A stretch of DNA of 33,156 nt, from positions 1 through 33,156 of the forward strand of contig JAUSNA010000081.1 in NCBI GenBank assembly GCA_030645455.1, given 5' to 3'. This document shows, piece by piece, positions 2,245 to 26,906 of the stretch. Numbering within the stretch: the stretch's first letter is position 1; each line of letters begins with the position of its first letter. Origin of the DNA: Candidatus Levyibacteriota bacterium (GTDB lineage: Bacteria > Patescibacteriota > Microgenomatia > Levybacterales > GWA1-39-11). Below the pieces are notes generated by a model. It was not told the DNA's origin. It did no database searches and saw nothing but the letters and a program-made list of their open reading frames with translations. The position numbers and the translations under genes are program-made.

Positions 2245-2258
2245 GACCAATCATTGAT

Positions 2259-4132: not shown

Positions 4133-4193
4133 ACTACATTAATAATACGTTCAATAATAAGCGCATGTCAAGGCAGGTGGAAATTAATACGGC

Positions 4194-4790: not shown

Positions 4791-5263
4791 GGATTGCTTG
4801 CAGGATAATTATACGGCATGCAGCTTATGAGCTCAGATTTATGACAAAATGTATTATTGGTTGGGCACTTGGTTGAAGACCAAGCAACAACAACTGTTAC
4901 CTTTATTTCTGAAGCGATGCATTGACTTGCACCTGGAGAAAAAGTAACAGTACGTATGTGCGAGGTTCCGGTGTTTACGGTAGTAGCATTGCAATTGTTG
5001 GTAGTTAAAGTACTATTTACCTCATCGATACAATACGTTGCATTTTGGTTGAAAGAGCCGAAAGCTCCAAGGTCATTCTTTTGTATGTTTCTGACAAATT
5101 CCATTCCTTCTTGTGCATATTTATTAGCTTCATTTTGGCCTTTTATAAATTGAGAGTTGTACAGCCCATTTACAATGACGATTGCAATAGCTGTCACAAT
5201 CAAAAGAATTGTAACTAAAGCAACGACAGCCTCTATTAACGATTGACCCCTTTGATTCTTCAT
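4787..5263 (-). CDS. Type IV prepilin, PilV-like
   Basis: This is a 158-residue minor prepilin. The very short leader MKNQRG is cleaved before QSLIEAVVALVTILLIVTAIAIVIV, the GQSLIEAVVAL form seen in PilV/GspI-type proteins. Several cysteines in the mature part (for example CIDE, NNC, CIAS, CHKS, SCMP) could form disulfides. It starts seven bases after the end of the previous prepilin gene and overlaps the next by four bases, so it is cotranscribed and coupled. The role as a minor or priming pilin is inferred from family and position. Confidence 0.85.
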   Translation of the reverse strand: MKNQRGQSLIEAVVALVTILLIVTAIAIVIVNGLYNSQFIKGQNEANKYAQEGMEFVRNIQKNDLGAFGSFNQNATYCIDEVNSTLTTNNCNATTVNTGTSHIRTVTFSPGASQCIASEIKVTVVVAWSSTKCPTNNTFCHKSELISCMPYNYPASNP

Positions 5264-5270
5264 TTTTTCA

Positions 5271-5831
5271 TCAATTTATTGATACATTTCCAATTGCATC
5301 AACGCTTATAGTTTTGCTTTGCCCAAAACCATTAACAACAAAATTACACGGAAGACCATTTCCTTTCGCACTCAAGCTGTCAAAAAGAACTTGATTGCAA
5401 GTAGTTCCGGCAGTAAAGGTCAAACCGGAAGGCAGTGTGTACCTCTTGATCCTATTGGATCCTCCACTAGCACAAACTTGATTAAGATCAATGCTGCTAT
5501 CTCCAAATGTCGTTATTGAATAACCCGATAAAGCATCGACACCGCAGTCAATAGTAATTCCCTGCTCGTTGCTGTTACTTTTGACCGTAGAGATTGCATT
5601 AAAGCGCGCCTGACTTATTAGAAGCTTTACGCTATTGGCTGACTGGGCTACCTGCTGAGTTCTACTATAAGAAGCAAAAGACGCAATACCTACTGCTGAG
5701 AGTATTGTAATTACGCTGAAAACCACGAGAATTTCAATAAGCGTAAAGCCTTTATTTGAAAATTCGTTTCTTTTTAAAAATAGAGCGGTTTCTTTAGAAG
5801 TGCCGCTTATTTCCCTATCAAAAATTCTCAT
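5271..5831 (-). CDS. Type IV prepilin, GspH/FimT-like
   Basis: A 186-residue prepilin with the cleavage region NKG/FTLIEILVVFSVITILSAVGIASF. The rather long leader has 28 residues. Downstream, the pattern around residues 70-80 (ANSVKLLISQARFNAI) is characteristic of FimT/GspH minor pilins. The beta-rich C-terminal part has four cysteines. The start codon overlaps the stop of the upstream prepilin gene as ATGA (5828-5831). FimT/GspH proteins cap or prime the fibre, and some bind DNA during uptake; no DNA-binding tail is evident here, so that role cannot be claimed. Confidence 0.85.
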   Translation of the reverse strand: MRIFDREISGTSKETALFLKRNEFSNKGFTLIEILVVFSVITILSAVGIASFASYSRTQQVAQSANSVKLLISQARFNAISTVKSNSNEQGITIDCGVDALSGYSITTFGDSSIDLNQVCASGGSNRIKRYTLPSGLTFTAGTTCNQVLFDSLSAKGNGLPCNFVVNGFGQSKTISVDAIGNVSIN

Positions 5832-6289
5832 GGATTCGTGAGCGTGAATGAGGCATCAGTACAATTGGCATTTTTTGGGTTGTCCTTTTCAGAATCTTCC
5901 GGATTTTCAAGGCATCCAAAGAGCGTATAGGTCAAACAGCTGACGCTGACGTTATCACAACTAGCAGGAGCAGCCGTATACCCAAAAGGACCGCCTGCAG
6001 ATGATGGATCACATGGAATTTCCTGCATGTAAACGGTTCCTCCAGCAGAAGTCAGTGGAATTCCGCAGGCAGCAAGAGCCGAATCGGGCGGATATTTACC
6101 GTTATCCGCTCTATATAACTCAAGAGAGGATTGTAGTTGATAGAGATTGGCCTTTCTTTGTCCATCCCGACCGCGCTGTCTTGCACCAATAAAGTTGACA
6201 GTCAAAAGAGCAGTAAGAACTGCCACAATCGAGATCGATACCAATAGCTCAATTAAGGTAAACCCACGAATTGTCTTTTTATTTTTCAT
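5828..6289 (-). CDS. Type IV prepilin (GspG/PilE-like major-pilin fold)
   Basis: The product begins MKNKKTIRG/FTLIELLVSISIVAVLTALLTVNFIGARQRGRDGQRKANLYQLQSSLELYRADNG. The run RGRDGQRKANLYQLQSSLELY is typical of GspG-like pilins, and paired cysteines near the C-terminus could close the D-loop. I choose the ATG at 6289, which gives a normal nine-residue leader. The ATG at 6295 is also possible, and the frame stays open upstream to 6406, but those residues overlap the previous gene and are not pilin-like. The intergenic part before the start is a heptamer repeat, and no good Shine-Dalgarno is visible. Confidence 0.85.
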   Translation of the reverse strand: MKNKKTIRGFTLIELLVSISIVAVLTALLTVNFIGARQRGRDGQRKANLYQLQSSLELYRADNGKYPPDSALAACGIPLTSAGGTVYMQEIPCDPSSAGGPFGYTAAPASCDNVSVSCLTYTLFGCLENPEDSEKDNPKNANCTDASFTLTNP

Positions 6290-6300
6290 ATCCATATACA

Positions 6301-6327
6301 TAATACTTAATACGTAATACGTAATAC
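6301..6327. repeat. Degenerate 7-bp tandem repeat (TAATACn)
   Basis: TAATAC occurs at 6301, 6308, 6315 and 6322, each exactly seven bases after the last. The array fills the gap between two prepilin genes. It has the same period as the arrays at 4753, 10767, 16209, 22432 and 26886 but a different word. Confidence 0.8.
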
Positions 6328-6330
6328 AAG

Positions 6331-6948
6331 TCAGGGTGATATATTTGGACTCGTAACGCCAAAGTTGCATATCCCGCCGCACGATATTCCCGTTGACCCT
6401 GCACACGCGGCTCCTCCGTTACAAGCCTGCGAATCTTTCCCTCCCCGGTCAAGTGATGCGTAAAGCGCGTATGATTGGCCTGAATTATCTGTCCAATAAG
6501 CATAGTTCTTTCCTCCTCGAGGATCTATAGGCAACACATCCATGTAAGGCCTCCAATCGCTTCCCCAATCAACAACCGTGTTGCTTGTCCCATCTGCAGA
6601 TATTTTATTGGCAAAAGCGGGGGGATACCTATTGTAGTCCTGATAGTATATTTCAAGCGACCTTTGTAGCTGAGCCAAATCGGACTTTCTTCTAGCGTCC
6701 GCACTTTTATAGAATTGCTCAAGTGGATTTATGACTACTAGTGCCGCTGAAGCCATAACAGCCAAAACACCCATTGCAGTTATGAGCTCGATAAGTGTAA
6801 ATCCCGAGGAGGTGTACCTCTTGTCTACATGAAGCTTGCCAAAAAACGTGCTATTAATTCTTCTCCATAGAAAAAGGCCACTATCGCCGAGACTATTAAA
6901 AATGGTCCGAATGGAATAGTACCCCCAAAAAATCTTATTTTTCTCCAT
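6331..6948 (-). CDS. Type IV prepilin with unusual start overlapping pilD
   Basis: The prepilin signature SSG/FTLIELITAMGVLAVMASAALVVINPLEQFYKSADARRKSDLAQLQRSLEIYYQDYNRYPP is clear, and a cysteine-rich C-terminus follows. The start is not clear. The only in-frame ATG is at 6948, giving a 49-residue leader that overlaps pilD by 124 bases. No ATG, GTG or TTG lies between it and the cleavage site. An ATT at 6858, preceded by GGAG, would give a normal 18-residue leader, but this is only a possibility. Translation may instead depend on coupling to pilD. The pilin identity is firm; the 5' boundary is not. Confidence 0.8.
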   Translation of the reverse strand: MEKNKIFWGYYSIRTIFNSLGDSGLFLWRRINSTFFGKLHVDKRYTSSGFTLIELITAMGVLAVMASAALVVINPLEQFYKSADARRKSDLAQLQRSLEIYYQDYNRYPPAFANKISADGTSNTVVDWGSDWRPYMDVLPIDPRGGKNYAYWTDNSGQSYALYASLDRGGKDSQACNGGAACAGSTGISCGGICNFGVTSPNISP

Positions 6949-7604
6949 ACAACCAGTATGATAGAGACGCCTGCACCTGTCAAGAAAGCCATATATAGAG
7001 CAGCAATTATATTAGGGAATCCAAGAAATAACCCTAAGACAAGTGACAGCTTCACATCTCCAAAACCCATTCCTTTGCCTTTGGTTACGAGAAAAAGAAT
7101 CAAGAAGAATAAGAAAGATCCCACAGCAGAAAGGAAATGAGTGGTCAAAGGAGCTGATGTTGCAATAAGATACAAGACGCTTGAAAAAAATGATACAACT
7201 ACCAACGCGTCAGGTATAATACCATACTCAATATCTGCAAAAAAGATCCCGATAAAGCTAAAAAGAGTAACCCCTAAAAAAATTGCAGCAGGCAAAGTGA
7301 AATAATTATTAAAATAGCCAAATCCTATTAAGGCTAATGTTGCTGCACAAATCAATTCAACAACAAAAAGGCGCACGGGAATTGTTGCCTTACAAAACCT
7401 GCATTTACCATTCAATAATAAATACGAGACAAGAGGTATAAGATCAATGGGTTTTAGGGTTTTTTTACAGTGTTCGCAATATGATCTTCCAAATAGAATG
7501 GATCTGCCGGTAGATAACCTGTCAATGACAACATTTAAAAAGCTGCCAAATGCCGCTCCGATAAATAAAAAGGGGATTAATGAAAGTAGGATAATTGAAT
7601 CCAA
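6825..7604 (-). CDS. pilD: Prepilin peptidase PilD (A24 family)
   Basis: PilD is the membrane aspartyl protease that removes prepilin leaders and methylates the new N-terminus. The 259-residue protein has the N-terminal GAAFGSFLNVVIDR motif and the cytoplasmic zinc-type pairs C43-x2-C46 and C68-x2-C71. The two catalytic aspartates are D124 (FFADIEYGIIPD) and D183 (GFGDVKL). About eight hydrophobic segments complete the expected topology, so both protease and methylase domains are present. It sits inside the operon of the prepilins it would process, 12 bases after the first of them. Its 3' end overlaps the next prepilin frame. Confidence 0.97.
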   Translation of the reverse strand: MDSIILLSLIPFLFIGAAFGSFLNVVIDRLSTGRSILFGRSYCEHCKKTLKPIDLIPLVSYLLLNGKCRFCKATIPVRLFVVELICAATLALIGFGYFNNYFTLPAAIFLGVTLFSFIGIFFADIEYGIIPDALVVVSFFSSVLYLIATSAPLTTHFLSAVGSFLFFLILFLVTKGKGMGFGDVKLSLVLGLFLGFPNIIAALYMAFLTGAGVSIILVVWRKIRFFGGTIPFGPFLIVSAIVAFFYGEELIARFLASFM

Positions 7605-7616
7605 GGGATTATCTAT

Positions 7617-8207
7617 TTATTGCGCGCACCAGTGGCAACTGGCCGCTAAAGCACCCGGCGTACAAGCTACGTCTATCCAGCCGGATCTATTATATCGATT
7701 GTTATCGTCCGCTCTGCCTGACAATGATTCCGGGTTGTAGCAAATTGAAGGACTCCCATCAACAGCTAGGTCTCCTCCTGCACAGGTTGATCCCGTACAG
7801 TATGGTTCAATAACATAAATCTCATCAAGACCTTGCGCCGTTGTAAATGCTTGCTTCAACTCTCCCTCAGCAATCAAATCTTCTAGGCATGGGAGTAGAC
7901 CCAATACGGTTTGGCCCACCTCAAGATCATCTGCCGTACCCGCTGTACCAACCGCAATACACGCCGCAGAAGCGCCGCTTCCTGTCTCCCATGGCATTTT
8001 TTCATGCGTTGTGTAATAGCGTACCAAAGCCCCATGAAGCTCAACAGCAATATTTTGTGTCCTTGAGTCTCTTGCTTTCCTCAACTGCTCAAATGGATCA
8101 ATTGTAGCAACAAGAGCTGCTGCCAGGATACCAAGAATACCGATAACAACAAGAAGCTCGATGAGAGTAAAACCTTTTTGGAGATGTCGGGCAGGTGACA
8201 ATTTCAT
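7617..8207 (-). CDS. Type IV prepilin, first pilin of the operon
   Basis: The 196-residue product starts MKLSPARHLQKG/FTLIELLVVIGILGILAAALVATIDPFEQLRKARDSRTQNIAVELHGALVRYY. The 12-residue basic leader and FTLIELLVVI core are textbook type IVa/GspG-like. The extended exported domain has paired cysteines at the C-terminus. I choose ATG 8207; the frame remains open to an ATG at 8276, but the extra residues do not look like a leader. As the first pilin gene, just before pilD, it could be the major subunit, though this cannot be decided from sequence alone. It follows the delta'-like gene in the same direction. Confidence 0.87.
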   Translation of the reverse strand: MKLSPARHLQKGFTLIELLVVIGILGILAAALVATIDPFEQLRKARDSRTQNIAVELHGALVRYYTTHEKMPWETGSGASAACIAVGTAGTADDLEVGQTVLGLLPCLEDLIAEGELKQAFTTAQGLDEIYVIEPYCTGSTCAGGDLAVDGSPSICYNPESLSGRADDNNRYNRSGWIDVACTPGALAASCHWCAQ

Positions 8208-8282
8208 GTTAAGTCCATCATAACCACAATGAAATTTCGTTGTCAAGTAGTAGTTTTGCCGGAAAAATAGCTTCAAAAAAAG

Positions 8283-9002: not shown

Positions 9003-10748
9003 ATGAATACACCTGTCCAAAACCAGTACGTCTCTGGTGCCAACGAACGCCCTTCAATTGGAGCGATATTATTGGAAGAGAAAATTCTTACACCCGAGCA
9101 GCTATCCAATCTTAAAATAGAGGCTGCAAAACAAAACCTGGAGATAGACAAGCTCATACACGATTTACAAATTGTTCCCGAAGAAAAATACTATGAAGCA
9201 CAAGCAAAATTACTCAATGTTCCCTTTACAAGCGTAACAACTCTACCATTCTCACCGGAAGCATTGGGCTTTATACCAAAATCGGTCGCAGAGCGGTTCA
9301 AACTTATTCCATTCGCTTTTGAGCAGGAAGGAAAAGTTTTGTCCGTTGTTATGAGCAACACAAATGACGTAGAGGCAATAGAATTTATAAAGCAAAAAAC
9401 GGGCGCGTCAATAAAGGTTTTTCAAGGCATTCCCTCCGAAGTCAACCAAGCAATTCAGACCCAATATAGCTTTGGACTTGTGGGAGAAGTTAAGGCAGCG
9501 CTTAAAGAGAGTGAACAAATCCAAAAAGTCAAAACATTCGATCTGCAAAGCATCTCTGAAGTCATTAAAGAGGCACCGATCGCAAAAATTGTATCGACTA
9601 TTTTGGAATATGCGGTCAAAAGCAGAGCATCCGATATCCATCTTGAGCCGCAAGAAGATAGAGTAAGAGTACGATACAGAATCGACGGCATACTATATGA
9701 AAGACTCTCACTTCCGCTTGGAGTAAGCGAAGCGGTAATATCCAGGGTAAAAATTCTGTCAGGACTAAAAATTGATGAGCACAGGACCCCTCAGGACGGA
9801 CGGTTTAATTTTAAAGTCGGAGATGAAGAGGTAGATCTACGTGTGAGCTCGTTGCCTACCGTATTTGGAGAAAAAATTGTCATGAGGCTGCTTCGAAAAT
9901 CGGGTGGAGTACCAACATTGGGAGATCTTGGAATCACAGGCACTTCACTTCGTACGCTTGAAGCGGCGATGCTAAGACCACACGGTATAATTTTGGTTTG
10001 CGGTCCGACGGGAAGCGGTAAAACCACAACGCTCTATGCAGTCCTTTCAAAACTCAACACAACAAGGGTAAATATTTTGACGCTTGAGGATCCCGTTGAA
10101 TACCAGATCCCCGGAGCAAATCAAGTACAAATTAATGATGATGTGGGTCTCACTTTTGCAACGGGGCTACGTGCTTTTTTGCGGCAAGATCCCAACATAA
10201 TCCTTGTCGGAGAAATCCGGGATAAAGAAACAACAGAGCTGGCAATTCAAGCCTCGCTCACCGGACACTTGGTTTTTTCAACTCTTCACACAGATAGTGC
10301 AGCTGGAGCACTTCCGAGGCTCATTGACATGGGAGCAGAGACATTTCTACTGGCATCCACAATTAATGCAACAATGGGGCAACGCATCGCCCGTAAAATT
10401 TGCCCGCACTGCAAAGTGGATTATGTTCCCCCGATGGAAATAATTGAAGAAATTAAAAAAGTACTAGGACCTCTAATGCCAAAGTCTACGGACACAACTA
10501 TTAAGCTTTTCAAGGGAACAGGGTGCGAGGTCTGCGGTCATTCCGGATTTTTGGGCCGAATCGGTATATATGAAGTAATGGCAATTACAGATGGAATTGC
10601 AAAACTTATTCTTGAAAGAAAAGACAGTACAACAATTGAAACAAGAGCAAAGCAGGAAGGAATGATAACAATGAAACAAGACGGTTACTTGAAAGTTTTG
10701 GCGGGACAGACAACAATTGATGAGATACTAAGAGTTGCACAAGAGTGA
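9003..10748 (+). CDS. pilB: Type IV pilus extension ATPase PilB
   Basis: PilB is the hexameric cytoplasmic motor that powers pilus extension. The 581-residue protein has an N-terminal GspE_N-type domain (about residues 15-150) and a RecA-like motor. Walker A is GPTGSGKTTT at 334-343 with K340; then come EDPVEYQIPG, the Walker B region NIILVGEIRD and the His-box region GHLVFSTLHTD. The zinc-binding pairs C467-x2-C470 and C508-x2-C511 identify the GspE/PilB class rather than PilT. It begins the divergent operon pilB-pilT-pilC. TGA is its stop codon, which argues that TGA is not reassigned in this organism. Confidence 0.97.
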   Translation: MNTPVQNQYVSGANERPSIGAILLEEKILTPEQLSNLKIEAAKQNLEIDKLIHDLQIVPEEKYYEAQAKLLNVPFTSVTTLPFSPEALGFIPKSVAERFKLIPFAFEQEGKVLSVVMSNTNDVEAIEFIKQKTGASIKVFQGIPSEVNQAIQTQYSFGLVGEVKAALKESEQIQKVKTFDLQSISEVIKEAPIAKIVSTILEYAVKSRASDIHLEPQEDRVRVRYRIDGILYERLSLPLGVSEAVISRVKILSGLKIDEHRTPQDGRFNFKVGDEEVDLRVSSLPTVFGEKIVMRLLRKSGGVPTLGDLGITGTSLRTLEAAMLRPHGIILVCGPTGSGKTTTLYAVLSKLNTTRVNILTLEDPVEYQIPGANQVQINDDVGLTFATGLRAFLRQDPNIILVGEIRDKETTELAIQASLTGHLVFSTLHTDSAAGALPRLIDMGAETFLLASTINATMGQRIARKICPHCKVDYVPPMEIIEEIKKVLGPLMPKSTDTTIKLFKGTGCEVCGHSGFLGRIGIYEVMAITDGIAKLILERKDSTTIETRAKQEGMITMKQDGYLKVLAGQTTIDEILRVAQE

Positions 10749-10766
10749 ATTTCGCGAAAAATTCAC

Positions 10767-10898
10767 AAATTCGAAGCACTAAATACGAAATTCGAAATAA
10801 TGTTATAAAAAACAAATTTTAAAAAATGAAAGTTTCAAATTTAAAACATTATAAATCGAAACTTGTTTAGTATTTAGAATTTAGTGTTTAGAATTTAA
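10767..10898. repeat. Heptamer array folding as an imperfect inverted repeat
   Basis: From 10767 five heptamers follow in register: AAATTCG, AAGCACT, AAATACG, AAATTCG and AAATAAT. On the far side TTTAG recurs at 10866, 10873, 10880 and 10887, ending in TTTAA at 10894, again every seven bases. The two halves are complementary: 10767-10784 pairs with 10879-10896 at 16 of 18 positions, and ATAATGTT (10797-10804) pairs with AACATTAT (10845-10852). The unit fills the pilB-pilT gap and could form a long hairpin in the operon mRNA. Confidence 0.75.
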
Positions 10899-10904
10899 AA
10901 TATT

Positions 10905-11975
10905 ATGGATCTAAATGCACTGCTTGAAAAAGCGATACAAACAAACGCATCCGACCTTCACATGCTGGCCGGAGTTTCGCCCGTGTATAGAATCAATGGC
11001 CTGCTTCAGCAATTAACGACCGTTGCGCCGCTTACTGAGCCGCAATTGGAGCAAATGATTTTTTCTCTACTTACTCCTGCTCAAAAGGAAATGTTTGTAA
11101 ATTCACGAGCTTTGGATTTTTCTTACGGATATGGCGGAGGCACTTACGGCGACAAGGGCAGATTTAGAGTCAACATTTATTATCAAAGGAGCACTCTTGC
11201 CGCAGCATTCAGGCTTCTTCCCCCAAAAGTTAAAACCATTGAAGAGCTCTTACTTCCCGATATCTGTCATAAATTATCAACGCTCAAGCAAGGATTTGTG
11301 CTTATTACAGGGCCTACCGGTCATGGCAAAACAACAACAATTGCAGCTATCGTCAATGAAATAAATATGACCCGTTCCGCCAACATCCTCACAATTGAGG
11401 ATCCAATTGAATATGTCTACCCTAAAGGTAGAAGCATAATTTCTCAAAGAGAGCTGGGGCACGACACTTTATCATGGGGGGAGGGACTTAAAAGTGCGCT
11501 TCGTGAAGACCCGGATGTTGTAATAGTAGGAGAAATGCGTGACCCAGAAAGCATTGCCTCGGCAATTACTATCGCCGAAACAGGTCATTTAGTGCTCTCC
11601 ACACTTCACACAAATTCTGCATCCCAAACGGTTGATAGAATAATTGACTCATTTCCGGAAGCTCAACAAAACCAAGTGCGCATCCAGCTTGCCTCAACTC
11701 TTGAAGCCATCATCTCTCAGCGACTCATACCAACAATCACAGCGGGTAGGGTTGTTGCTACAGAAATTCTTATGGCAACGACAGCGGTGCGTTCAAATAT
11801 CCGCGAAGGCAAAACACACCTTATCGATTCGATAATTGAGACGTCGTCTGACGAGGGAATGAACTCTTTGGAAAGCTCGTTGGCAAAGCTTGTTGCTGAT
11901 GGAAAAATAGCAGTAGATACCGCAAAAGCTTATGCGCTTCGTCCGGATAGTCTAACCCGACTTTTAGGGCAATAA
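10905..11975 (+). CDS. pilT: Type IV pilus retraction ATPase PilT
   Basis: PilT depolymerises the pilus and gives twitching and DNA-uptake force. The 356-residue protein has the PilT-type N-terminal domain (DLNALLEKAIQTNASDLHML) and Walker A GPTGHGKTTT from residue 136 with K142. These are followed by IEDPIEYVYP, a Walker B region DVVIVGEMRD and the His box GHLVLSTLHTNSA. The C-terminal AVRSNIREGK matches the PilT AIRNLIRE retraction motif. It lacks the four-cysteine zinc site of PilB. It is separated from pilB by a hairpin-forming repeat, and its stop is one base from the pilC start. Its presence predicts retractable pili. Confidence 0.97.
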   Translation: MDLNALLEKAIQTNASDLHMLAGVSPVYRINGLLQQLTTVAPLTEPQLEQMIFSLLTPAQKEMFVNSRALDFSYGYGGGTYGDKGRFRVNIYYQRSTLAAAFRLLPPKVKTIEELLLPDICHKLSTLKQGFVLITGPTGHGKTTTIAAIVNEINMTRSANILTIEDPIEYVYPKGRSIISQRELGHDTLSWGEGLKSALREDPDVVIVGEMRDPESIASAITIAETGHLVLSTLHTNSASQTVDRIIDSFPEAQQNQVRIQLASTLEAIISQRLIPTITAGRVVATEILMATTAVRSNIREGKTHLIDSIIETSSDEGMNSLESSLAKLVADGKIAVDTAKAYALRPDSLTRLLGQ

Positions 11976-11976
11976 C

Positions 11977-13179
11977 ATGGAGTATTCATTTATAGCAGCT
12001 GACCCACAAGGGGCAAAACAAAAAGGAAAACTTGAAGCTAATGACCAGAAAGAGGTTATTGAGTATCTCAGAATGAAGGGATACATACCTTTATCTGTAA
12101 AAAGCTTAGAAAAGAATAGTTCCAGCATTCTTGCGTATTTTTCAAGGGTAAAAGGTTCCGACATCGTACTTTTTACCAGGCAACTTTCGTCAATGATAAC
12201 TACAGGACTGACGGTTATTGAAAGTTTGAATATTCTTAAGCAGCAAAATAACAAGCCACAAATGCAAAAAGTTCTCGATGATCTTATTGCAAGCCTATCT
12301 GAGGGTACTGCTCTTTCCAAGGCACTTTCCAATTACCCCTCCATCTTTTCACCTACTTATATTGCACTCATAAAGTCTGCAGAGGAGGGCGGAATTCTTG
12401 ATAAAGTCTTAGAACGGTTAGCCGATAATTTGGAAAAATCGGAGGATGTTAAAAAGCGAGTAAAATCCGCACTTTTTTATCCCGGAATTATCATATCGGG
12501 CGTCATCACGGTTATTATCATGATGAATATCTTTGTCATACCCCAAATGGGGAGTCTATACGAGAGTCTTGATCTAGAACTTCCTTTTATGACACGTGTT
12601 GTGCTGGCCGGTTCAAAACTCACAACTACACTGCTGCCATTTTCCATCTTCTTCATTATCGGAGGAGTTATCGGATTTAAAAAATTTGCCAAGACCCCGC
12701 GAGGAATACGATTCGTTGATAAAATACGGTTGAAAATGCCTGTTTTTGGGGACATTGTAAGACTTTCAGTTCTTAGTGAGGTTTCGCGAACTATTTCCCT
12801 TCTCGTCAACTCTGGAGCCTCGCTTATTGGAGGACTTACCATTGCGGGAGATGTGGCAGGAAACATTTATTATAAGAATGCTCTTGTGGGAACAAGCTCA
12901 TTGGTCGAAAAAGGTGCCGGTCTTTCAATCGCTCTTCAAAACCAAAATATTTTCCCTCCCCTCATGATACAAATGGTAAAAGTGGGGGAGTCAACGGGAA
13001 AAATTGACGAAAGCCTCCTTAAAGTAAGCGAATATTTCGAACGCGATCTCGATATAAAAGTAAAAACACTAACAACATCAATAGAGCCGATTCTTATTAT
13101 TTTCCTTGGAGTTTCGGTTGCTTTTCTTATCATCTCAGTCATTACTCCTATTTATTCTCTTGTATCCCAAATCCAGTAA
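11977..13179 (+). CDS. pilC: Type IV pilus platform protein PilC
   Basis: PilC is the inner-membrane platform on which PilB and PilT act. The 400-residue protein has two GspF domains. The first (about residues 50-190) contains FTRQLSSMITTGLTVIESLNIL; the second (about 250-390) contains LSEVSRTISLLVNSGASLIGGL and MIQMVKVGESTGKIDESLLKVSEYFE. Three membrane helices are visible: near 167-187, near 207-227, and a C-terminal one. The ATG lies one base after the pilT stop, which indicates translational coupling. Length and layout match family members. Confidence 0.96.
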   Translation: MEYSFIAADPQGAKQKGKLEANDQKEVIEYLRMKGYIPLSVKSLEKNSSSILAYFSRVKGSDIVLFTRQLSSMITTGLTVIESLNILKQQNNKPQMQKVLDDLIASLSEGTALSKALSNYPSIFSPTYIALIKSAEEGGILDKVLERLADNLEKSEDVKKRVKSALFYPGIIISGVITVIIMMNIFVIPQMGSLYESLDLELPFMTRVVLAGSKLTTTLLPFSIFFIIGGVIGFKKFAKTPRGIRFVDKIRLKMPVFGDIVRLSVLSEVSRTISLLVNSGASLIGGLTIAGDVAGNIYYKNALVGTSSLVEKGAGLSIALQNQNIFPPLMIQMVKVGESTGKIDESLLKVSEYFERDLDIKVKTLTTSIEPILIIFLGVSVAFLIISVITPIYSLVSQIQ

Positions 13180-19546: not shown

Positions 19547-20392
19547 ATGGAAATCAGCGGAAAAAAACTACAAGAAGAATTACTACCCCAGCTTAAAAGG
19601 CGGCTAGAAAACCTAAAATCAAGAGGGGTTAATCCTGCGATTGGTATCGTAACCTTAGGTCCAGAGGAAACGTGGGAGGCGTATGTAGGGCAGAAAATCA
19701 AGCTTGCAAAATCCCTAGGAATCACAACAAAATTGTTAAATCTGAGGCCAAAAACTACCGATGACGTACTAAGGGATGTAAAGACACTAAATAGCGATAA
19801 TACTATACACGGTCTTATAGTACAGAGACCTTTTCCGACATATATTGATACGGACAAAGTAATTCAAAGTATATCAAAAGAGAAAGATATTGATGGGTTT
19901 AGAAATGACTCCCCATATCAAGTTCCCGTATGGCTTGCCGTTCAGCACTTTCTCACTCACGTCTCACAACTGCTAGGTGAACTTGATTTTCAGTTTTGGC
20001 TGTCACAACGTACTGTTTTGGTCATTGGCAAGGGGCAAACAGCAGGCCGACCGGTGATTAAAGAGCTTCAAAACTTAAAAATAAAGACTTTGGTTATGGA
20101 CAGCAAAACGATTGATCGTAACAATCTATTCCGTAGCGCCGATATCATAATCTTTGCAACAGGAAAAAGGATGGAGATACCATATAAAATGCTCAAAAAA
20201 ACTTGTATCCTAATAGGAATTGGATTGCACCGCTTTGAAGGTAAATTACAGGGTGATTTTGATGAATTTGAGGCTAAAAACAGCGTCCTATATTATACAC
20301 CTTCACCCGGTGGAGTAGGACCCCTCAACCTTGCTTTTCTTTTCGAAAATTTACTAACAGCCGCAGAAAATTCTACAAAACGGGGAGTATAA
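19547..20392 (+). CDS. folD: Methylenetetrahydrofolate dehydrogenase/cyclohydrolase FolD
   Basis: FolD interconverts 5,10-methylene- and 10-formyl-tetrahydrofolate. The 281-residue protein keeps the key residues: Y46 and K50 in AYVGQK, Q93 in the GLIVQRPFP motif, and the KDIDGF motif at 113-118. The Rossmann half has VIGKGQTAGRPV where the classical sequence is VIGRS-x-VG-x-P, and the C-terminal PSPGGVGPLN motif is present. The altered nucleotide loop suggests a divergent enzyme with cofactor preference that cannot be read from sequence. A TATAAT seven bases upstream indicates a leaderless mRNA. It follows the small-gene cassette. Confidence 0.93.
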   Translation: MEISGKKLQEELLPQLKRRLENLKSRGVNPAIGIVTLGPEETWEAYVGQKIKLAKSLGITTKLLNLRPKTTDDVLRDVKTLNSDNTIHGLIVQRPFPTYIDTDKVIQSISKEKDIDGFRNDSPYQVPVWLAVQHFLTHVSQLLGELDFQFWLSQRTVLVIGKGQTAGRPVIKELQNLKIKTLVMDSKTIDRNNLFRSADIIIFATGKRMEIPYKMLKKTCILIGIGLHRFEGKLQGDFDEFEAKNSVLYYTPSPGGVGPLNLAFLFENLLTAAENSTKRGV

Positions 20393-20413
20393 TTATCTTA
20401 AATACCCACCCGC

Positions 20414-21589
20414 ATGAAAAAGTTAATAGTTCTTTTTTTGTTTTTTATTCTACTTGCCGTGTATTTTTTTACAAAAGATAAGATAGGAGATCTACGGCCT
20501 TCACTTGTTCCCTCATCTAAAGATCTAGTTGCAGAAATACTAGATGCTCAACAAACCGGCTCTCGTCCCGACATACCCCTCACATTGCCGGAGGGATTTC
20601 AAATTGGGGTTTTTGAAAGCGGCCTGATAAATGTACGCGATTTACAATTTACACCCACAGGAACCTTGCTTGCTTCACTTATGAAAGAGGGGAGTGTAGT
20701 TGCTCTTCCTGACAAAAATAAAGACGGTCAGGCGGATGGAATTTATACGGTCATAAAAGATCTTCAAAAACCTCACGGAATTGCTTTTTATAAAGGTAAA
20801 TTATTTGTGGCCCAAGAGGAAAGTGTTTCTCGTTATTCTTACGACGAAACTAATTTTGTAGCAACTTTTGACAAAAAACTTTTTGATTTACCTATCGGTG
20901 GAAGACACAAAACGAGAAGCATTGTATTTGATAAAAAAGGAAATTTGTATGTCTCTCTTGGATCAACTTGCGATACGTGTATTGAGAAAAATGCCTTTAT
21001 AGCTACGGTTCTCATAAGCGACAGTGAAGGCAAAAGCCCCCGTGTTTACTCTAAGGGACTCAGAAATGCAGTCTTTCTTGCTGTCAATCCTGTGACTGAC
21101 GAGATTTATGCAACAGAAATGGGTAGAGACTTCCTGGGAAACACGACCCCTCCCGATGAAATAAATATACTTTCCGATAACGGAAATTTTGGTTGGCCAT
21201 TTTGTTATGGAAAAAAGGTGTGGGACAAGAATTTTGGATTTAAAGATGAGAGCTATTGCAGAAATACCATTTCTCCCATCTACGAAATCCCGGCACACTC
21301 AGCACCCTTGGGGATTACATTTATAAAATCTTCTCAGGTGCCAAGCTCTTGGCAAAATGATATCTTGGTGTCTTACCATGGATCATGGAATAGCACGGTT
21401 CCTGTTGGATATAAAATTGTTAGGATTTCGACCAAGGGAACACCCAGTGAGCATGACTTTATCACAGGATTTATCAGCGGATCGGACGCATTAGGAAGAC
21501 CCGTAGATGTCGAATTTGATACCGATGGAAGTCTATACATCTCAGATGACAAGGCAAATGCGATATATAAAGTAATTGCAAAGCCCTAG
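20414..21589 (+). CDS. Membrane-anchored glucose/sorbosone dehydrogenase-like beta-propeller
   Basis: The 391-residue protein begins with an uncleaved-type signal anchor (KKLIVLFLFFILLAVYFFT). It continues with the soluble quinoprotein glucose/sorbosone dehydrogenase fold: LPEGFQIGVFESGLINVRDLQFTPTGTL, HGIAFYKGKLFVAQ, GGRHKTRSIVFDKKGNLYVSLGS, GLRNAVFLAVNP and DILVSYHGSWNS. These match the repeated blades and the active-site GRHKTR-like motif of the family. It probably oxidises a sugar outside the cytoplasmic membrane with bound PQQ, but whether this organism has PQQ is unknown; some relatives are non-enzymatic. A TATAAT at 20388-20393 overlaps the folD stop. Confidence 0.88.
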   Translation: MKKLIVLFLFFILLAVYFFTKDKIGDLRPSLVPSSKDLVAEILDAQQTGSRPDIPLTLPEGFQIGVFESGLINVRDLQFTPTGTLLASLMKEGSVVALPDKNKDGQADGIYTVIKDLQKPHGIAFYKGKLFVAQEESVSRYSYDETNFVATFDKKLFDLPIGGRHKTRSIVFDKKGNLYVSLGSTCDTCIEKNAFIATVLISDSEGKSPRVYSKGLRNAVFLAVNPVTDEIYATEMGRDFLGNTTPPDEINILSDNGNFGWPFCYGKKVWDKNFGFKDESYCRNTISPIYEIPAHSAPLGITFIKSSQVPSSWQNDILVSYHGSWNSTVPVGYKIVRISTKGTPSEHDFITGFISGSDALGRPVDVEFDTDGSLYISDDKANAIYKVIAKP

Positions 21590-21592
21590 CAC

Positions 21593-21621
21593 TTGACCAT
21601 CCTTTCACATTTCTGTAATAT
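21593..21621 (+). promoter_or_regulatory. Promoter of the CAP-domain gene
   Basis: TTGACC (21593-21598), a 17-base spacer, then TAATAT (21616-21621). The GTG start codon at 21631 is only ten bases downstream, so the mRNA would have almost no leader. Confidence 0.5.
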
Positions 21622-21630
21622 GATCTTTGC

Positions 21631-22431
21631 GTGACTTTTTACAAAAAGCGTAATAAAAGATACGGTCCTCTTGTCCACCAGCAGCGTCATCACAGAAAAT
21701 ACACAGTATTTCTCTCAGGGAGTATTGTGTTCTCATCTGTTGTATTGGGTATTGGTTTTTTCACATCCATATTTAGCAATAAAACGAATCAAGCCGTACT
21801 CGGAGCAAGTATTTCAAATGCCCAGACTGCGCTATTAATGCCAATTGTTGAAGTAACCATTGGACCAACAATAGCTCCAACTGTTACTCCAACCAACAAG
21901 CCAACTCCCACCCCCACAATCCGCCCCAAAAATACACCAACATCAATCCCACAACAACAGGAACCCACCACAACTGCTACTTCAGGACAATACACAGCCG
22001 AAAAGATTAATGACGTCACTTGGAGAGTAAAAAACGTCAAAAATGATGACAATATGGCAAGCCCTCAAGATATTGTAAATGCCCTCAATTCATACCGGGG
22101 AGAACGGGGAAAACCAAATCTAACAGTTGACGGCAATCTCGCCTCTTATGCTCAGGATCGCGCGAATTTATTTGCATCAAATGGCTCACTTGATTCTCAT
22201 GCAGGTTTTAGAAATTATATGGATAACGGGGGATTTGATAAAGCAGGATTTAATTCACTTGGGGAAAATTCCGCGTATATTTCAGGTCCAATGAACGGTG
22301 ACAAAATTATAAGAAGTATATTTGGAGCAGACTCATCTCATGACGGAAATCAGCTGGACAACTGGACACATGTAGGAGTTGGGGTGAATGGTAATGCAGT
22401 TAATGTAAATTTTGGAAAGAACAAGAAATAG
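21631..22431 (+). CDS. Surface-anchored CAP/SCP-domain protein
   Basis: The 266-residue protein has a basic N-terminus and a membrane anchor (about residues 25-48). A Thr/Pro-rich extracellular linker follows (about 70-115, many PTxxPT steps), then a C-terminal CAP domain (about 143-266). The domain shows IVNALNSYRGERGKPNLTVDGNLASYAQDRA, then SHAGF, GENSAY, and finally HDGNQLDNWTHVGVGV, the usual order of CAP motifs. CAP proteins act outside the cell in adhesion or wall modification; the substrate is unknown. GTG is the start codon, used by an almost leaderless mRNA. A heptamer repeat follows immediately. Confidence 0.88.
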   Translation: MTFYKKRNKRYGPLVHQQRHHRKYTVFLSGSIVFSSVVLGIGFFTSIFSNKTNQAVLGASISNAQTALLMPIVEVTIGPTIAPTVTPTNKPTPTPTIRPKNTPTSIPQQQEPTTTATSGQYTAEKINDVTWRVKNVKNDDNMASPQDIVNALNSYRGERGKPNLTVDGNLASYAQDRANLFASNGSLDSHAGFRNYMDNGGFDKAGFNSLGENSAYISGPMNGDKIIRSIFGADSSHDGNQLDNWTHVGVGVNGNAVNVNFGKNKK

Positions 22432-22460
22432 GAATTAGTGGTTTTCGAATTAGGAATTAG
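22432..22460. repeat. Degenerate heptamer repeat (GAATTAG)
   Basis: GAATTAG occurs at 22432-22438, 22447-22453 and 22454-22460; the last two abut. The longer unit GGAATTAGTGGT is repeated exactly at 22431-22442 and 22453-22464. It lies between two convergent genes. Confidence 0.7.
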
Positions 22461-23136
22461 TGGTAATTTTGATTCGGAGTTTTTCTAATTGTTCTTTGCG
22501 AAGTTTTAACCTCATGTCAGAGGCAATTACTTTTCCTGCTTCGTCTAGTAGTTCTTTTGCCTTATTTTTATCTGTTTCAAACAATGCTTCCGCCATATGC
22601 ATATAAGCACCAGATAGCCAGACACATTTTGCATAACTGTCCTTATCCTCTGCTGAAATAAGGTCATTTAGTGAAGATTCAAACCTTTCCAATGCGGTTG
22701 TGTCTCCTTTTTTATATTCCAGAACAGAAAGTCTCGTCTTCATTTCAGAAAGCATTGCTAGCCTATTTGCATCTAACAATACAGCTTCTCTGTAGCTTGA
22801 TAAAGCGTCATCATCGTCACCCAAACTTTCCTGTACCTTACCTAAATTATAAATTGCCATTGAAAGTAGGGTAGTGTCACTTCCTAGTCTTGCTAACTCA
22901 ACCGATGCCATTGCTGAATGCTTTGCTAGAACTAAGTAATTTTTGGATGTCGTTTTGTCAGACAAGTGACGGTAGACTAGTGCTTGGCTTGCAAGGGCAT
23001 CAACCAATTTTTCTTCTTTCCGTTCTTCAACAATTGCTACTATCGCATCAGAAAGCAGTTCTAAAGATTTTTTAAAGTCGCCACGTTCGCGAGCTTGTTC
23101 ACTTTGCATTAGAAGTCCTCTCGCATCATTATTCAT
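22450..23136 (-). CDS. TPR-repeat protein
   Basis: A 228-residue helical protein built from tetratricopeptide-like units. Clear examples are the stretches near residues 20-55 (GDFKKSLELLSDAIVAIVEER), 88-120 (LLSMAIYNLGKVQESLGDDDDALSSYREAV) and 130-160. TPR arrays are protein-interaction scaffolds; no catalytic domain is present. It starts two bases after the stop of the upstream small membrane protein and so shares its promoter. The C-terminus lies inside or next to a heptamer repeat. The partner is unknown. Confidence 0.8.
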   Translation of the reverse strand: MNNDARGLLMQSEQARERGDFKKSLELLSDAIVAIVEERKEEKLVDALASQALVYRHLSDKTTSKNYLVLAKHSAMASVELARLGSDTTLLSMAIYNLGKVQESLGDDDDALSSYREAVLLDANRLAMLSEMKTRLSVLEYKKGDTTALERFESSLNDLISAEDKDSYAKCVWLSGAYMHMAEALFETDKNKAKELLDEAGKVIASDMRLKLRKEQLEKLRIKITTNS

Positions 23137-23138
23137 AT

Positions 23139-23543
23139 TTATTCCCTGGCATTCTTTCCTGTTGGCCCCATATATCCATGTCCAAACTTTTCAGGAGTAG
23201 GCTTGGTTTGATTTTTAGGCTCAACCGATTTTATAGATCCTGTCCCATTGATTTTGATTCGGAGACAACTTACATCTTCACTAGGAGAATTTGACGCAAC
23301 AAACAAAGACTCAAGGGGACTAAATCGCTGAACAAGTCTAGTTTCAATGTCTGCTATTAATACACATGAAGGGGCATCGCTTGATTCAAACTCCGTGGAA
23401 ATATTGCTATCACTAGGAGTATCTTCACCAACTGCCATCATTAATGATCCGGCAACAATTCCAGAACCCACTGTAGAAAGTACAAATAAACCCCTTTTTA
23501 CACTTTTTCCGAATGTATAAGCGCTAGACTCATTGGATGCCAC
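23139..23543 (-). CDS. Small membrane-associated protein, unknown
   Basis: I start this 134-residue protein at GTG 23543 because a TGCTATAAT element ends seven bases upstream, predicting an mRNA that begins at this codon; the open frame extends to 23606 without good signals. The product has a basic N-terminus, one hydrophobic segment (GLFVLSTVGSGIVAGSLMMAVG, about residues 17-38) and an exported-looking region with three cysteines (SCVLI, SCLRI). No family is recognised. It forms a two-gene transcript with the TPR protein downstream. Confidence 0.6.
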   Translation of the reverse strand: MASNESSAYTFGKSVKRGLFVLSTVGSGIVAGSLMMAVGEDTPSDSNISTEFESSDAPSCVLIADIETRLVQRFSPLESLFVASNSPSEDVSCLRIKINGTGSIKSVEPKNQTKPTPEKFGHGYMGPTGKNARE

Positions 23544-23549
23544 GAGCAC

Positions 23550-23555
23550 ATTATA
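23550..23555 (-). promoter_or_regulatory. Extended -10 (TGCTATAAT) of the membrane/TPR pair
   Basis: On the minus strand TGCTATAAT ends seven bases before GTG 23543. The TG at the extended position compensates for a missing -35. It is divergent from a similar element at 23630-23635. Confidence 0.55.
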
Positions 23556-23629
23556 GCACAAGGATCCAATTTTATTATTCCACCAAATGAAATTTATGGT
23601 AGACATCCACTTAATACTAAAAGGGTGCT

Positions 23630-23635
23630 ATAATT
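23630..23635 (+). promoter_or_regulatory. Extended -10 (TGCTATAAT) of the split gene
   Basis: TGCTATAAT, with TATAAT at 23630-23635, ends five bases before the ATG at 23641. This fixes that ATG as the likely start, again with no leader and no Shine-Dalgarno. Confidence 0.55.
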
Positions 23636-23640
23636 TCTCC

Positions 23641-23940
23641 ATGGAAAGAGGCAGACTAGAACAGGAAAAACTATCAGAAAAACTCTCACGCATACTACAG
23701 GCAAAAAACAAAGTTGTAAGGGGTATCTGGACAGGCATCCCTATAGATGAAAAAACTGCATTTCAAAACCTCGAAGCGAGGCTTGAGCTGGGTCAGAAAG
23801 GAGAAGAAATTGCACTTGAAGAATTCTGGAAAAACAATGAAGGATTTATTAAAAAATCCGGTTCAGCCCTTAACGCTCGAATGCGCCAGAATTTAGTGGA
23901 GTCAGCATTTACTGAACTAATTGGCCGCTTCAGGAATTAG
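23641..23940 (+). CDS. N-terminal part of an unknown gene interrupted by TAG
   Basis: This 99-residue helical, charged protein starts MERGRLEQEKLSEKLSRILQAKNKVVRGIW. I recognise no domain. It ends at TAG 23938-23940, but the same frame continues without another stop to 24285, and the sequence reads on smoothly as RFRN-stop-DGTPVVLFEQPETNG. The pair may therefore be one 215-codon gene with a nonsense mutation, a readthrough site, or two coupled genes. The frame open upstream to 23587 lacks a start with signals; the extended -10 at 23630 supports ATG 23641. Confidence 0.6.
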   Translation: MERGRLEQEKLSEKLSRILQAKNKVVRGIWTGIPIDEKTAFQNLEARLELGQKGEEIALEEFWKNNEGFIKKSGSALNARMRQNLVESAFTELIGRFRN

Positions 23941-23952
23941 GATGGAACCCCA

Positions 23953-24285
23953 GTGGTACTTTTTGAACAACCTGAAACCAATGGACAGCCAAAAATTCTT
24001 GATTTGTTCAAGTTTGAACCGGAAATCCGAGAGAATGCTTTAAAATTCTATGACGAACAAGCAAGACAAGACATCATATCAACAGTCATTAAAAAGGACC
24101 AACTACACAATACGCCATTGATACATCCCAGGCATTTAGCCCCTGGATTGATAGTTACAACCAGCAATGTTGGTGAACATAAAATTATTACACCAACAAT
24201 GATTGATGGTGTAATGCTTAGATTCACACACCCTCAAGCCAACAGTACGCCAATTGTCGAATTTATTCCTGAAATAGCAGCCTAG
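23953..24285 (+). CDS. C-terminal part of the split unknown gene
   Basis: A 110-residue product if it restarts at GTG 23953, which has AGGA about ten bases upstream. It is in the same frame as the preceding gene, separated only by TAG and four codons. The sequence (ILDLFKFEPEIRENALKFYDEQARQDIISTVI, then HPRHLAPGLIVTTSNVGEHKIITPTMIDGVMLRF) looks like a helical segment followed by a beta-rich domain. No family recognised. It converges on the recombinase gene, eleven bases away. Confidence 0.5.
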   Translation: MVLFEQPETNGQPKILDLFKFEPEIRENALKFYDEQARQDIISTVIKKDQLHNTPLIHPRHLAPGLIVTTSNVGEHKIITPTMIDGVMLRFTHPQANSTPIVEFIPEIAA

Positions 24286-24295
24286 CCAGAAAGTG

Positions 24296-25261
24296 CTATC
24301 TTTTATTCCCTTGATGAAACTTTCGGTGGACGTTTTTTAACTGCGGGTTGGTCACGTGAGTATAAATCTGAGTAGTACTAATATTTTTGTGTCCCAGCAT
24401 TTCCTGCACAGAACGTAAATCGGCCCCATTATAAAGTAGGTCCGTTGCAAAACTGTGTCTTAGTCCATGCGGGCTAATTTTTACAGGTAATTTTGCCTTT
24501 CGCACATATTTTTCAACAATTCTCTCAATGGAGCGGGGAGTGAGCCTCATCCTTTCTCCTTGATTGATCGGATCAACACCTTTTGCATAACGAATAAATA
24601 CTGGAGCAAAATTTTCATCCCTGGCGTCAAAATATTTTGTGAGCCAAAAGATGGCAGAATCGGACAGAAATACAACTCGCGCCCTTCCCCCTTTTCCAAT
24701 AACACCAAATTCTAGAGTCTTAAAATTCATTTGATCCCTGTTGAGTCTGCACAATTCAGAAACACGCAGGCCTGTTGAGAAAAGCAGTTCCAAAATCGCT
24801 CTGTCGCGAAGACCTTTAACATCTGAAGTGTCGACTGCATTCATAAGCTCCCGAAGGTGATCGCGGCCTAAAAATTTTAATGATTTACTTTCTCCTTTTG
24901 GAAGATCAATTTTTTCGGGAGACAGGGTTTCCATGTCATTTCTCACGCAAAAACGCAAAAAAGAACGTAGAGCAATTATGTGATAGCCCTGAGTCACCCG
25001 CATTAAAGTTATTCCTTTATCGTCAGCATAATCAGACAACCATACACGGTATCGCCGTACAAGCTCAATATTGATGTCCTTTATGCTTTTTTGAGGGTAA
25101 TTAGCCTCAAACCAAGAAGTAAACCGGCTTAAGTAAAACTTATAATTTCTTATCGTAAGCTTGCTCGCGTTTTTCTCTATTTCAAGATACTCAAGGTAAG
25201 TATTTATTGGTTTTGCAAGATGAGAGGGAAGTGTGGGAACATTTTCCATAGGGCAGAGCAC
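24296..25261 (-). CDS. Tyrosine recombinase, XerC/XerD-like
   Basis: The 321-residue protein has an N-terminal SAM-like core-binding domain (about 15-105) and a C-terminal catalytic domain with the full set of active-site residues: R166 (TGLRVSEL), K190 (GKGG), H265 and R268 (HGLRHSFAT), H291 (LGHKNI) and nucleophile Y300 (IYTHV). It may be the housekeeping Xer that resolves chromosome dimers or a mobile-element integrase. The GTG at 25261 fits a promoter with TTGACA at 25290-25295 and CATAAT at 25266-25271; ATG 25249 is an alternative. A dyad covers that promoter, suggesting autoregulation or a recombination site. Confidence 0.92.
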   Translation of the reverse strand: MLCPMENVPTLPSHLAKPINTYLEYLEIEKNASKLTIRNYKFYLSRFTSWFEANYPQKSIKDINIELVRRYRVWLSDYADDKGITLMRVTQGYHIIALRSFLRFCVRNDMETLSPEKIDLPKGESKSLKFLGRDHLRELMNAVDTSDVKGLRDRAILELLFSTGLRVSELCRLNRDQMNFKTLEFGVIGKGGRARVVFLSDSAIFWLTKYFDARDENFAPVFIRYAKGVDPINQGERMRLTPRSIERIVEKYVRKAKLPVKISPHGLRHSFATDLLYNGADLRSVQEMLGHKNISTTQIYTHVTNPQLKNVHRKFHQGNKR

Positions 25262-25265
25262 AAAT

Positions 25266-25295
25266 ATTATGCGACATATTGATCTTATATGTCAA
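25266..25295 (-). promoter_or_regulatory. Recombinase promoter with overlapping dyad
   Basis: On the minus strand TTGACA (25290-25295), an 18-base spacer and CATAAT (25266-25271) precede GTG 25261 by about five bases. A perfect inverted repeat, GACATAT (25273-25279) and ATATGTC (25287-25293) with a seven-base centre, covers the spacer and part of the -35. That is where a repressor, or the recombinase itself, would bind. Confidence 0.6.
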
Positions 25296-25351
25296 CACCA
25301 ATATAGTACTTTTAAGGAAAATTGCCAATATTTTATTCGTAATTTAATAAA

Positions 25352-25377
25352 TGTACGATATATCGATATATCGTACA
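25352..25377. repeat. Perfect 26-bp palindrome
   Basis: The two 13-base halves are exact reverse complements, reading TGTACGATATATC outward-in and centred on TCGA at 25363-25366. There is no spacer. It sits between the recombinase promoter and the promoter of the broken gene, as a dimeric-protein operator or cruciform might. Confidence 0.9.
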
Positions 25378-25392
25378 CAAGGTGCCCTACTT

Positions 25393-25407
25393 TTATTGTG
25401 CGACATA
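25393..25407. repeat. Direct repeat copy 1, TTATTGTGCGACATA
   Basis: This 15-mer is repeated exactly at 26083-26097, 690 bases away, and its core recurs with one change at 25266-25278. It overlaps the -35 region of the promoter for the broken gene. It could be a recombination half-site or a regulator box. Confidence 0.75.
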
Positions 25408-25424
25408 GAAAATATTTGTAGGAA

Positions 25425-25433
25425 TGCTATAAT
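25425..25433 (+). promoter_or_regulatory. Extended -10 element TGCTATAAT
   Basis: TGCTATAAT ends seven bases before the ATG at 25440, the same leaderless arrangement as several intact genes, so the now broken gene was probably once expressed. Confidence 0.5.
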
Positions 25434-25439
25434 TGATGC

Positions 25440-25747
25440 ATGAAGCCAATTGAGCAACTTGTTGACTTTTTCACCTCACCCGAAGCCACACGAATCCAGA
25501 TAATCTCAGAAGGTATTACTAGCGGAATTTTCATGTTGTAGAACCAGGCTGCGTCGATAATATAATTGAAATACAATCCAAAAATACATCTCATAATTCA
25601 GATAATTTGCCAGGACTTACACTTGGTTATGGCATCTGAATTAAGATAATTAAGGGCGATGAAAATAATGCCACAACAATGCCGATGTGGATCATTCCAG
25701 AGCTTTCAAATAACAACTCACCACAAGATTTGACACTTAAGAATTAG
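25440..25747 (+). pseudogene. Broken small gene (frameshift plus stop)
   Basis: From ATG 25440 the frame reads MKPIEQLVDFFTSPEATRIQIISEGITSG, then hits TAG at 25539. A one-base frame change near 25523 restores a second frame, NFHVVEPGCVDNIIEIQ...LPGLTLGYGI, then TGA at 25637-25639. The same frame continues IKIIKGDENNATTMPMWIIPELSNNNSPQDLTLKN to TAG at 25745. Codon use and amino-acid texture look protein-like across all three parts, and a promoter is preserved. I do not recognise the ancestral protein. Readthrough of TGA is unlikely because TGA ends intact genes here. Confidence 0.5.
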
Positions 25748-25887
25748 CCTCACGCTAGCCCTTCCAGGATGCGATTTAAGGCCCCTGAAATATCAGCAAG
25801 CACTATGTAATCCTCTCATATTAATAGTTAATACTTGGCAGTTGATATCTTAGAAGGAAAATCGAAAAAACATAGCCTTTCTACTAC

Positions 25888-26026
25888 AATTTTACCGTAC
25901 TCTATTAATAACCTATAGTAGAGTAGTTTGAACAGGTTATTAATGTACGAAAAGTAGGCCATGAAATCAACTCAGTACGCATTTGTATGTATATTAAAAT
26001 TCATCCTTAAATTCGACGGTAAAATT
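25888..26026. repeat. Nested perfect inverted repeats
   Basis: The outer arms AATTTTACCGT (25888-25898) and ACGGTAAAATT (26016-26026) are exact complements 117 bases apart. The inner arms ATTAATAACCT (25904-25914) and AGGTTATTAAT (25934-25944) are exact complements around 19 bases; the stem extends by CGTAC/GTACG after a three-base bulge. The arrangement resembles a small non-autonomous element with terminal inverted repeats, or a large regulatory hairpin. Confidence 0.75.
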
Positions 26027-26077
26027 CCTACAAGGAGCCAAATAGGTACAGCCTCAGAAGTCGTTAGTATGTCGTAA
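25961..26077 (+). pseudogene. LexA-like winged-helix fragment
   Basis: A 38-residue frame starting MKSTQYAFVCILKFILKFDGKIPTRSQIGTASEVVS resembles the N-terminal DNA-binding segment of LexA-type repressors, in which xVLxFIxxF precedes a glycine, then PT-x-x-EI. It stops at TAA (26075-26077), six bases before the second TTATTGTGCGACATA copy, so only a stub of a regulator remains. The similarity is short and judged by eye. It could be an entirely different small peptide. Confidence 0.3.
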
Positions 26078-26097
26078 AAGTATTATTGTGCGACATA
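26068..26097. repeat. Direct repeat copy 2 within a dyad
   Basis: TTATTGTGCGACATA recurs exactly at 26083-26097. Here CGACATA (26091-26097) is also complementary to TATGTCG (26068-26074), with 16 bases between. A one-mismatch dyad GCGACAT/ATATCGC follows across three bases. Confidence 0.7.
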
Positions 26098-26289
26098 AGA
26101 TATCGCCACAAAACAACCACTCCCATAGAGCAGCCGGTATTCACTTCAAATGCCAAAAATCCTGAAATCCACACGTATTCATTTTGTCGATTTTGGCCTC
26201 ATATTTCGCCACTCTTCGAGGAAAGATAGCAACTCTTAAGGTCAGGGGTGCTGTTATACGAGCATTTTACCCTCAAAACAGCGGAGAAA

Positions 26290-26374
26290 TAGCCTCAAAA
26301 TGAGGTCGTATTTTCGATTTATTTTCGACTCTCCTGCTCCGCCGGTGCCTACAAAAACACACCTAGCCTCAAAA
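26290..26374. repeat. Two TAGCCTCAAAA boxes (third at 26870-26880)
   Basis: The 11-mer TAGCCTCAAAA is found at 26290-26300, 26364-26374 and 26870-26880, always in the same orientation. The first is inside a small hairpin (CCTCA/TGAGG). The third is preceded by a related TAGCTTCAAAT. They may be binding boxes for one protein. Confidence 0.5.
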
Positions 26375-26384
26375 CCGTGAAAAG

Positions 26385-26490
26385 TTATCCACATCCTGCG
26401 TGAAATATTAGCTATTGAGCTCAGTTGGCACTTTTCTGTTTTTGTTGATAATCCGCTCTAAACTATCATTTTTGTGGCTGTTTATCAACA
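26385..26490. promoter_or_regulatory. Cluster of DnaA-box-like 9-mers
   Basis: TTATCCACA (26385-26393) matches the bacterial DnaA-box consensus exactly. TGTTGATAA (26443-26451, minus orientation) and TTATCAACA (26482-26490) each differ from the consensus at one position and form an inverted pair. A+T-rich sequence follows (26491-26510 and 26736-26790). This is what a minimal origin would show, though chance or a DnaA-titration site cannot be excluded. Confidence 0.4.
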
Positions 26491-26505
26491 ATTAGTTATT
26501 AATAA

Positions 26506-26712
26506 TTAAGCACAAGTGACAGAAGAACATGATGAGCTCTCTACCTTTTTGTTTGAAAAACTAAGCACTATTTGCATTACAGTCTTGGGTGCATTTTTTC
26601 TAACAATCGAACTAACTGTGTAGTATTCCAAAATTATAGGATATATATTATGGGACGCATTATGAGATACCACACCACTATATCTAACTATATCATTTGA
26701 AGCCAGAATCAC
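26506..26712 (-). CDS. Doubtful 68-residue reading frame
   Basis: A GTG at 26712 has GGGGGAG eight bases upstream on the minus strand, a good ribosome binding site. The peptide (ILASNDIVRYSGVVSHNASHNIYPIILEYYTVSSIVRKNAPKTVMQIVLSF...) has no recognisable domain, and its serine/cysteine-rich tail looks random. It lies in the repeat-rich region where no other frame is intact. I list it because of the start signal only; it may not be a gene. Confidence 0.22.
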   Translation of the reverse strand: MILASNDIVRYSGVVSHNASHNIYPIILEYYTVSSIVRKNAPKTVMQIVLSFSNKKVESSSCSSVTCA

Positions 26713-26885
26713 ATCACTCACTCCCCCACTTCTTGTAAAAAATTAAATATTATTTACTGTTAATATTTATTATAAGAACTATATTGTGATTACTGGCTAG
26801 GAGAATATGAATGATAAATTTCTAGTGATATATACTATGGGATACTACAGGCGCATTTTTAGCTTCAAATAGCCTCAAAATACCC

Positions 26886-26906
26886 AATGCTTAATACTTA
26901 ATGTTA
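26886..26906. repeat. Short heptamer array at a gene end
   Basis: AATGCTT, AATACTT and AATGTTA follow one another in seven-base register and run into the stop codon of the membrane protein gene. It is the sixth heptamer array of the window. Confidence 0.5.

Follow-up and report, generated by a model that had tools for sequence, protein, structure and literature searches.

A single in-frame TAG in a rare accessory gene between folD and xerC of a Candidatus Levyibacteriota genome

Bacterial interrupted coding sequences (ICDS), or nonsense pseudogenes, are otherwise intact frames that are broken by a single in-frame stop and have a relative lacking the interruption, and the locus described here has the same features. 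Unlike typical ICDS, it has one distant relative, from which neither age nor decay is measurable, and its gene family is unnamed. The large-scale analysis by Belinky et al. 2021 (PMC7918605) deals with in-frame stops that are kept under purifying selection. The TAG presented here is similar in that it lies within a gene with undamaged coding on both sides, but it differs in coming without a set of close orthologues that share the TAG and could serve for dN/dS. An in-frame TAG is also the common feature of amber recoding, which depends on a suppressor tRNA or on pyrrolysine. Unlike such systems, the present genome uses TAG as a routine stop, has a gene for release factor 1 and shows no CTA-anticodon tRNA among 42 matches.

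The interrupted frame and its start signals

The window, i.e., the whole stretch of DNA analysed, comprises 33,156 nucleotides of contig JAUSNA010000081.1. The interrupted gene and its signals are arranged as follows.

23641-24285, plus strand: frame with a single internal stop, from sequence and translation
23626-23634, plus strand: extended -10 box TGCTATAAT, from sequence; its TATAAT begins 12 nt before the ATG at 23641, a leaderless arrangement
23641-23940, plus strand: upstream part, 99 codons plus TAG, with homology to the intact relative (E 3e-12) and a coding score
23938-23940, plus strand: in-frame TAG, in a gapped, weakly conserved stretch of the alignment
23953-23955, plus strand: candidate restart codon GTG, 12 nt past the TAG and without TATAAT at -12
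23941-24285, plus strand: downstream part in the same frame, 114 codons plus the terminal TAG (24283-24285), with homology to the relative (E 2e-6) and a coding score

The original prediction of a single TAG that interrupts this frame, with coding on both sides, is borne out by the translation, the codon usage and the matches of the relative. The downstream part contains neither a frameshift nor a further stop before the terminal TAG. Codon usage was scored with a model derived from 152 long ORFs in 320 kb of the genome (the window and 20 further stretches), which superseded scoring based on the window only. The upstream part reaches 0.140, the 68th percentile of 498 true coding chunks, and the downstream part 0.115, the 51st percentile; among 2,490 wrong-frame chunks, these scores are exceeded by 0.16% and 0.32%, respectively. 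Taken alone, the length of the open frame past the TAG is weak evidence for one gene, and at least 110 open same-frame codons follow 10 of the 256 ORF-ending stops in the genome sample. Ten same-frame ORF pairs were found when this sample was scanned, the interrupted gene included; at least one of the others, the pair at window positions 15686/15692, represents two neighbouring genes, with the second start one codon past the stop. The frame at 23641 nevertheless exceeds chance expectation, because its two halves find their match in a single continuous protein of a related genome.

The frame is also open further upstream, to an ATG at 23587, and the -10 box together with the relative points to 23641 as the probable start. 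TATAAT-like hexamers begin at -12 before 33 of 221 ORFs (the window and stretches L037-L056) and mostly before one to eight at each other position (12 at -14 and 13 at -13), while Shine-Dalgarno 4-mers at -14 to -8 precede 4 of the 221; in both counts the first ATG was taken as the start, and true starts may differ. Starts in this genome thus often look leaderless, to judge from such motifs, and the 3' end of the 16S rRNA retains CCTCC. The intact leaderless promoter proposed for the gene holds as sequence, its TATAAT at 23629-23634 occupying the -12 position preferred in this genome. A literature search retrieved no report on Patescibacteria with both Shine-Dalgarno and leaderless starts or on Levybacteria with leaderless starts, and the pattern may still be published. 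Passages of PMC12641178 mention YchF and leaderless translation; the interrupted gene is absent from these passages.

An intact relative in a variable interval

The relative is encoded by Candidatus Levybacteria CG2_30_37_29 (G002; contig MNYS01000008.1, L002/L057/L058), a member of the same family as the window genome. It consists of one ORF that runs without a break across the position of the stop, with its likely start at an ATG (L057:5962), and the two halves match it separately and in order. Identity is 31% over 81 residues for the upstream part (E 3e-12) and 27% over 107 residues for the downstream part (E 2e-6). The full alignment is 27% identical, with the stop between two matched blocks and gaps beside it. 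Since one ORF in the same folD-xerC interval matches both halves, the gene at 23641-24285 was probably a single gene ancestrally. The TAG at 23938-23940 is most likely derived in the window lineage; this direction of change depends on one comparison, because the only relative is distant (27% identity) and the gaps beside the stop hide the ancestral codon. A sense codon in orthologues had been proposed as the mark of a mutation, and this proposal stands in part: the stop is absent from the one orthologue found, but this orthologue is distant and the alignment is gapped at the decisive place. Orthologues in the form of two separate proteins were not found, the one relative being a single ORF.

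Further homologues are scarce. With the own genome counted, matches at E <= 0.01 occurred in 3 of 99 relatives and in 3 of 82 genomes of the order, and at E <= 0.001 in 2 of 373 genomes of the class and 2 of 379 of the phylum. Searching genome contigs gave no match with a single sequence as query and one with the alignment, and viral contigs gave none. Two weak matches were dropped as chance, one in L003 (E 0.004), within an ORF that by eye looks like a glycosyltransferase, and one in L006 (E 0.007, 62 positions). The gene is detected in two of the eight family genomes examined and elsewhere only by these two dropped matches; no genome of the same genus came up in the search of the 99 relatives. 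Neither half matched Pfam, PHROGs or NCBIfam entries beyond two weak Pfam matches of the upstream half (E 0.037 and 0.054, neither reaching its cut-off). The relative matched nothing in Pfam and NCBIfam, and the best match in a PDB search was no better than E 0.38. A predicted fold of the relative, based on a two-row alignment, was too poor for use (mean pLDDT 38, pTM 0.23).

Both genomes carry the gene between folD and xerC, and gyrA precedes folD; gyrA and folD were recognised by eye from their translations. The recombinase encoded by xerC in the window is a phage-integrase-family protein according to Pfam. In the window, the interrupted gene is oriented tail-to-tail with xerC (24296-25261, minus strand), and in G002 one other gene separates the relative from xerC. 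Of the six other family genomes, G001, G003, G004 and G005 hold other genes beside xerC, as read by eye from translations without one-by-one comparison, and the contigs of G006 and G007 end near xerC. Because the gene was detected in only two of eight family genomes and the content between folD and xerC differs among them, it is an accessory gene of rare occurrence, and the interval around it is variable.

Two further observations concern the surroundings. Gene content between folD and xerC (window 19547-25261) varies across the family genomes, and the interval, with its neighbouring gene for a tyrosine recombinase, may be a hotspot of insertion; the approx. 1.6 kb that follow xerC up to the next long ORF (25262-26903) are devoid of ORFs of at least 110 aa. 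At some distance, positions 1039-8276 and 9003-13179 hold a type IV pilus cluster, recognised by eye, with several pilin-like ORFs, a prepilin peptidase, PilB/PilT/PilC and PilM/N/O-like genes.

Reading of TAG and the rival explanations

TAG is an ordinary stop in this genome. It terminates 54 of 214 ORFs of at least 150 codons in 320 kb, next to 121 that end in TAA and 39 in TGA. A release factor 1 homologue (L079) is encoded that contains RVPLTE and GGQ stretches. The RVPLTE stretch is of the PxT type. L079 is matched best by the NCBIfam models for release factor 1 but does not reach their curated cut-offs (335 against 400 and 324 against 423 bits); the sequence searched lacked 8 residues at the ORF start and 11 at the end. 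Release factor 2 (L080) is encoded as well and scores above its cut-off. None of the 42 tRNA matches in this 88% complete genome has the anticodon CTA, and a suppressor tRNA was rejected on this count; 40 of them were typed by ARAGORN and two by eye, at C42:9944 (GUG) and C8:24258 (CAG, cut by the contig end). A recoding RNA structure past the stop was likewise rejected, since the fold of 120 nt is no better than those of shuffled sequences (z = 0.08). With TAG as a routine terminator, a release factor 1 gene, no CTA tRNA and no such fold, termination at this codon is expected.

The main rival to a nonsense mutation is gene fission, in which the TAG would have split the protein into two functional ones, the second made by restart at GTG 23953; we consider it unlikely, if worth keeping in view. 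The GTG is the fifth codon past the TAG and the first common start codon there. Its distance from the stop is only 12 nt, and a restart at this position would cost very little of the downstream block in the alignment. The stop also falls in a gapped, weakly conserved stretch, codon usage beyond it is normal, and the genome does contain same-frame neighbours with a start one codon past the stop (the pair at 15686/15692 described above). However, the only relative found is unsplit, and the GTG lacks both a leaderless TATAAT box at -12 and a well-placed Shine-Dalgarno motif, so that restart would be needed for a second protein. The nearest Shine-Dalgarno-like sequence, AGGA at 23939-23942, shares bases with the stop and is 10 nt away from the GTG, and only 4 of 221 ORFs in this genome have such 4-mers ahead of their starts. 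That a two-part protein has recently become two separately initiated polypeptides, the second by GTG restart without a ribosome-binding site, is less likely still.

The TAG could also be an error of the consensus or of base calling, or a minority allele, in a metagenome-assembled genome; we regard this as improbable. The assembly consists of 82 contigs, with 88% completeness and 3.76% contamination, and both halves of the gene are otherwise undamaged. The difference at the TAG, however, is of the substitution type. Substitutions are less typical of sequencing errors than insertions or deletions. For the interrupted coding sequences of Mycobacterium smegmatis, PMC1852416 attributes a significant proportion to sequencing errors.

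Readthrough, in which near-cognate misreading or a programmed signal would bypass the TAG often enough for a useful full-length protein, is very improbable: the frame is continuous with normal codon usage on both sides, and PMC7918605 argues that bacterial genes widely contain and often tolerate in-frame stops, many with dN/dS below 1, but the relative lacks the TAG, and the programmed amber readthrough considered in the original prediction finds no support in the tRNAs, release factor gene, TAG usage and folding described above.

Nonsense mutation as the preferred reading

A recent nonsense mutation in an accessory gene is the explanation we prefer, with reasonable if not high confidence. The ancestral gene would have been a single ORF of approx. 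215 codons, transcribed leaderless from the TATAAT at 23629-23634. The amber codon would then have arisen within its frame, either in the lineage of the window genome or in some members of the population that was sequenced. Ribosomes would start at 23641 and terminate at the TAG via release factor 1, yielding a product of 99 residues. The downstream half would remain mostly untranslated and would still look coding-like because the event is recent. The direction of change, this recency and a loss of function of the interrupted gene are what we infer. Besides the dependence on one distant and gapped comparison, two points count against a mutation. The downstream half is undamaged and has normal codon usage, as if it were still translated. 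The stop also lies between two matched blocks, where conservation is weak, a position that a functional split would favour likewise.

Most likely, the gene is a dispensable, fast-evolving accessory gene, and its TAG is possibly only a population variant or a consensus error; dispensability fits a folD-xerC stretch of varying content among family members. As it stands, this is an ordinary interrupted gene that merits a pseudogene flag in annotation. The case would matter more if close relatives retained the TAG and selection acted on both halves, because Shine-Dalgarno motifs are rare here and restart past the stop would then offer a way of making two proteins that is open to testing.
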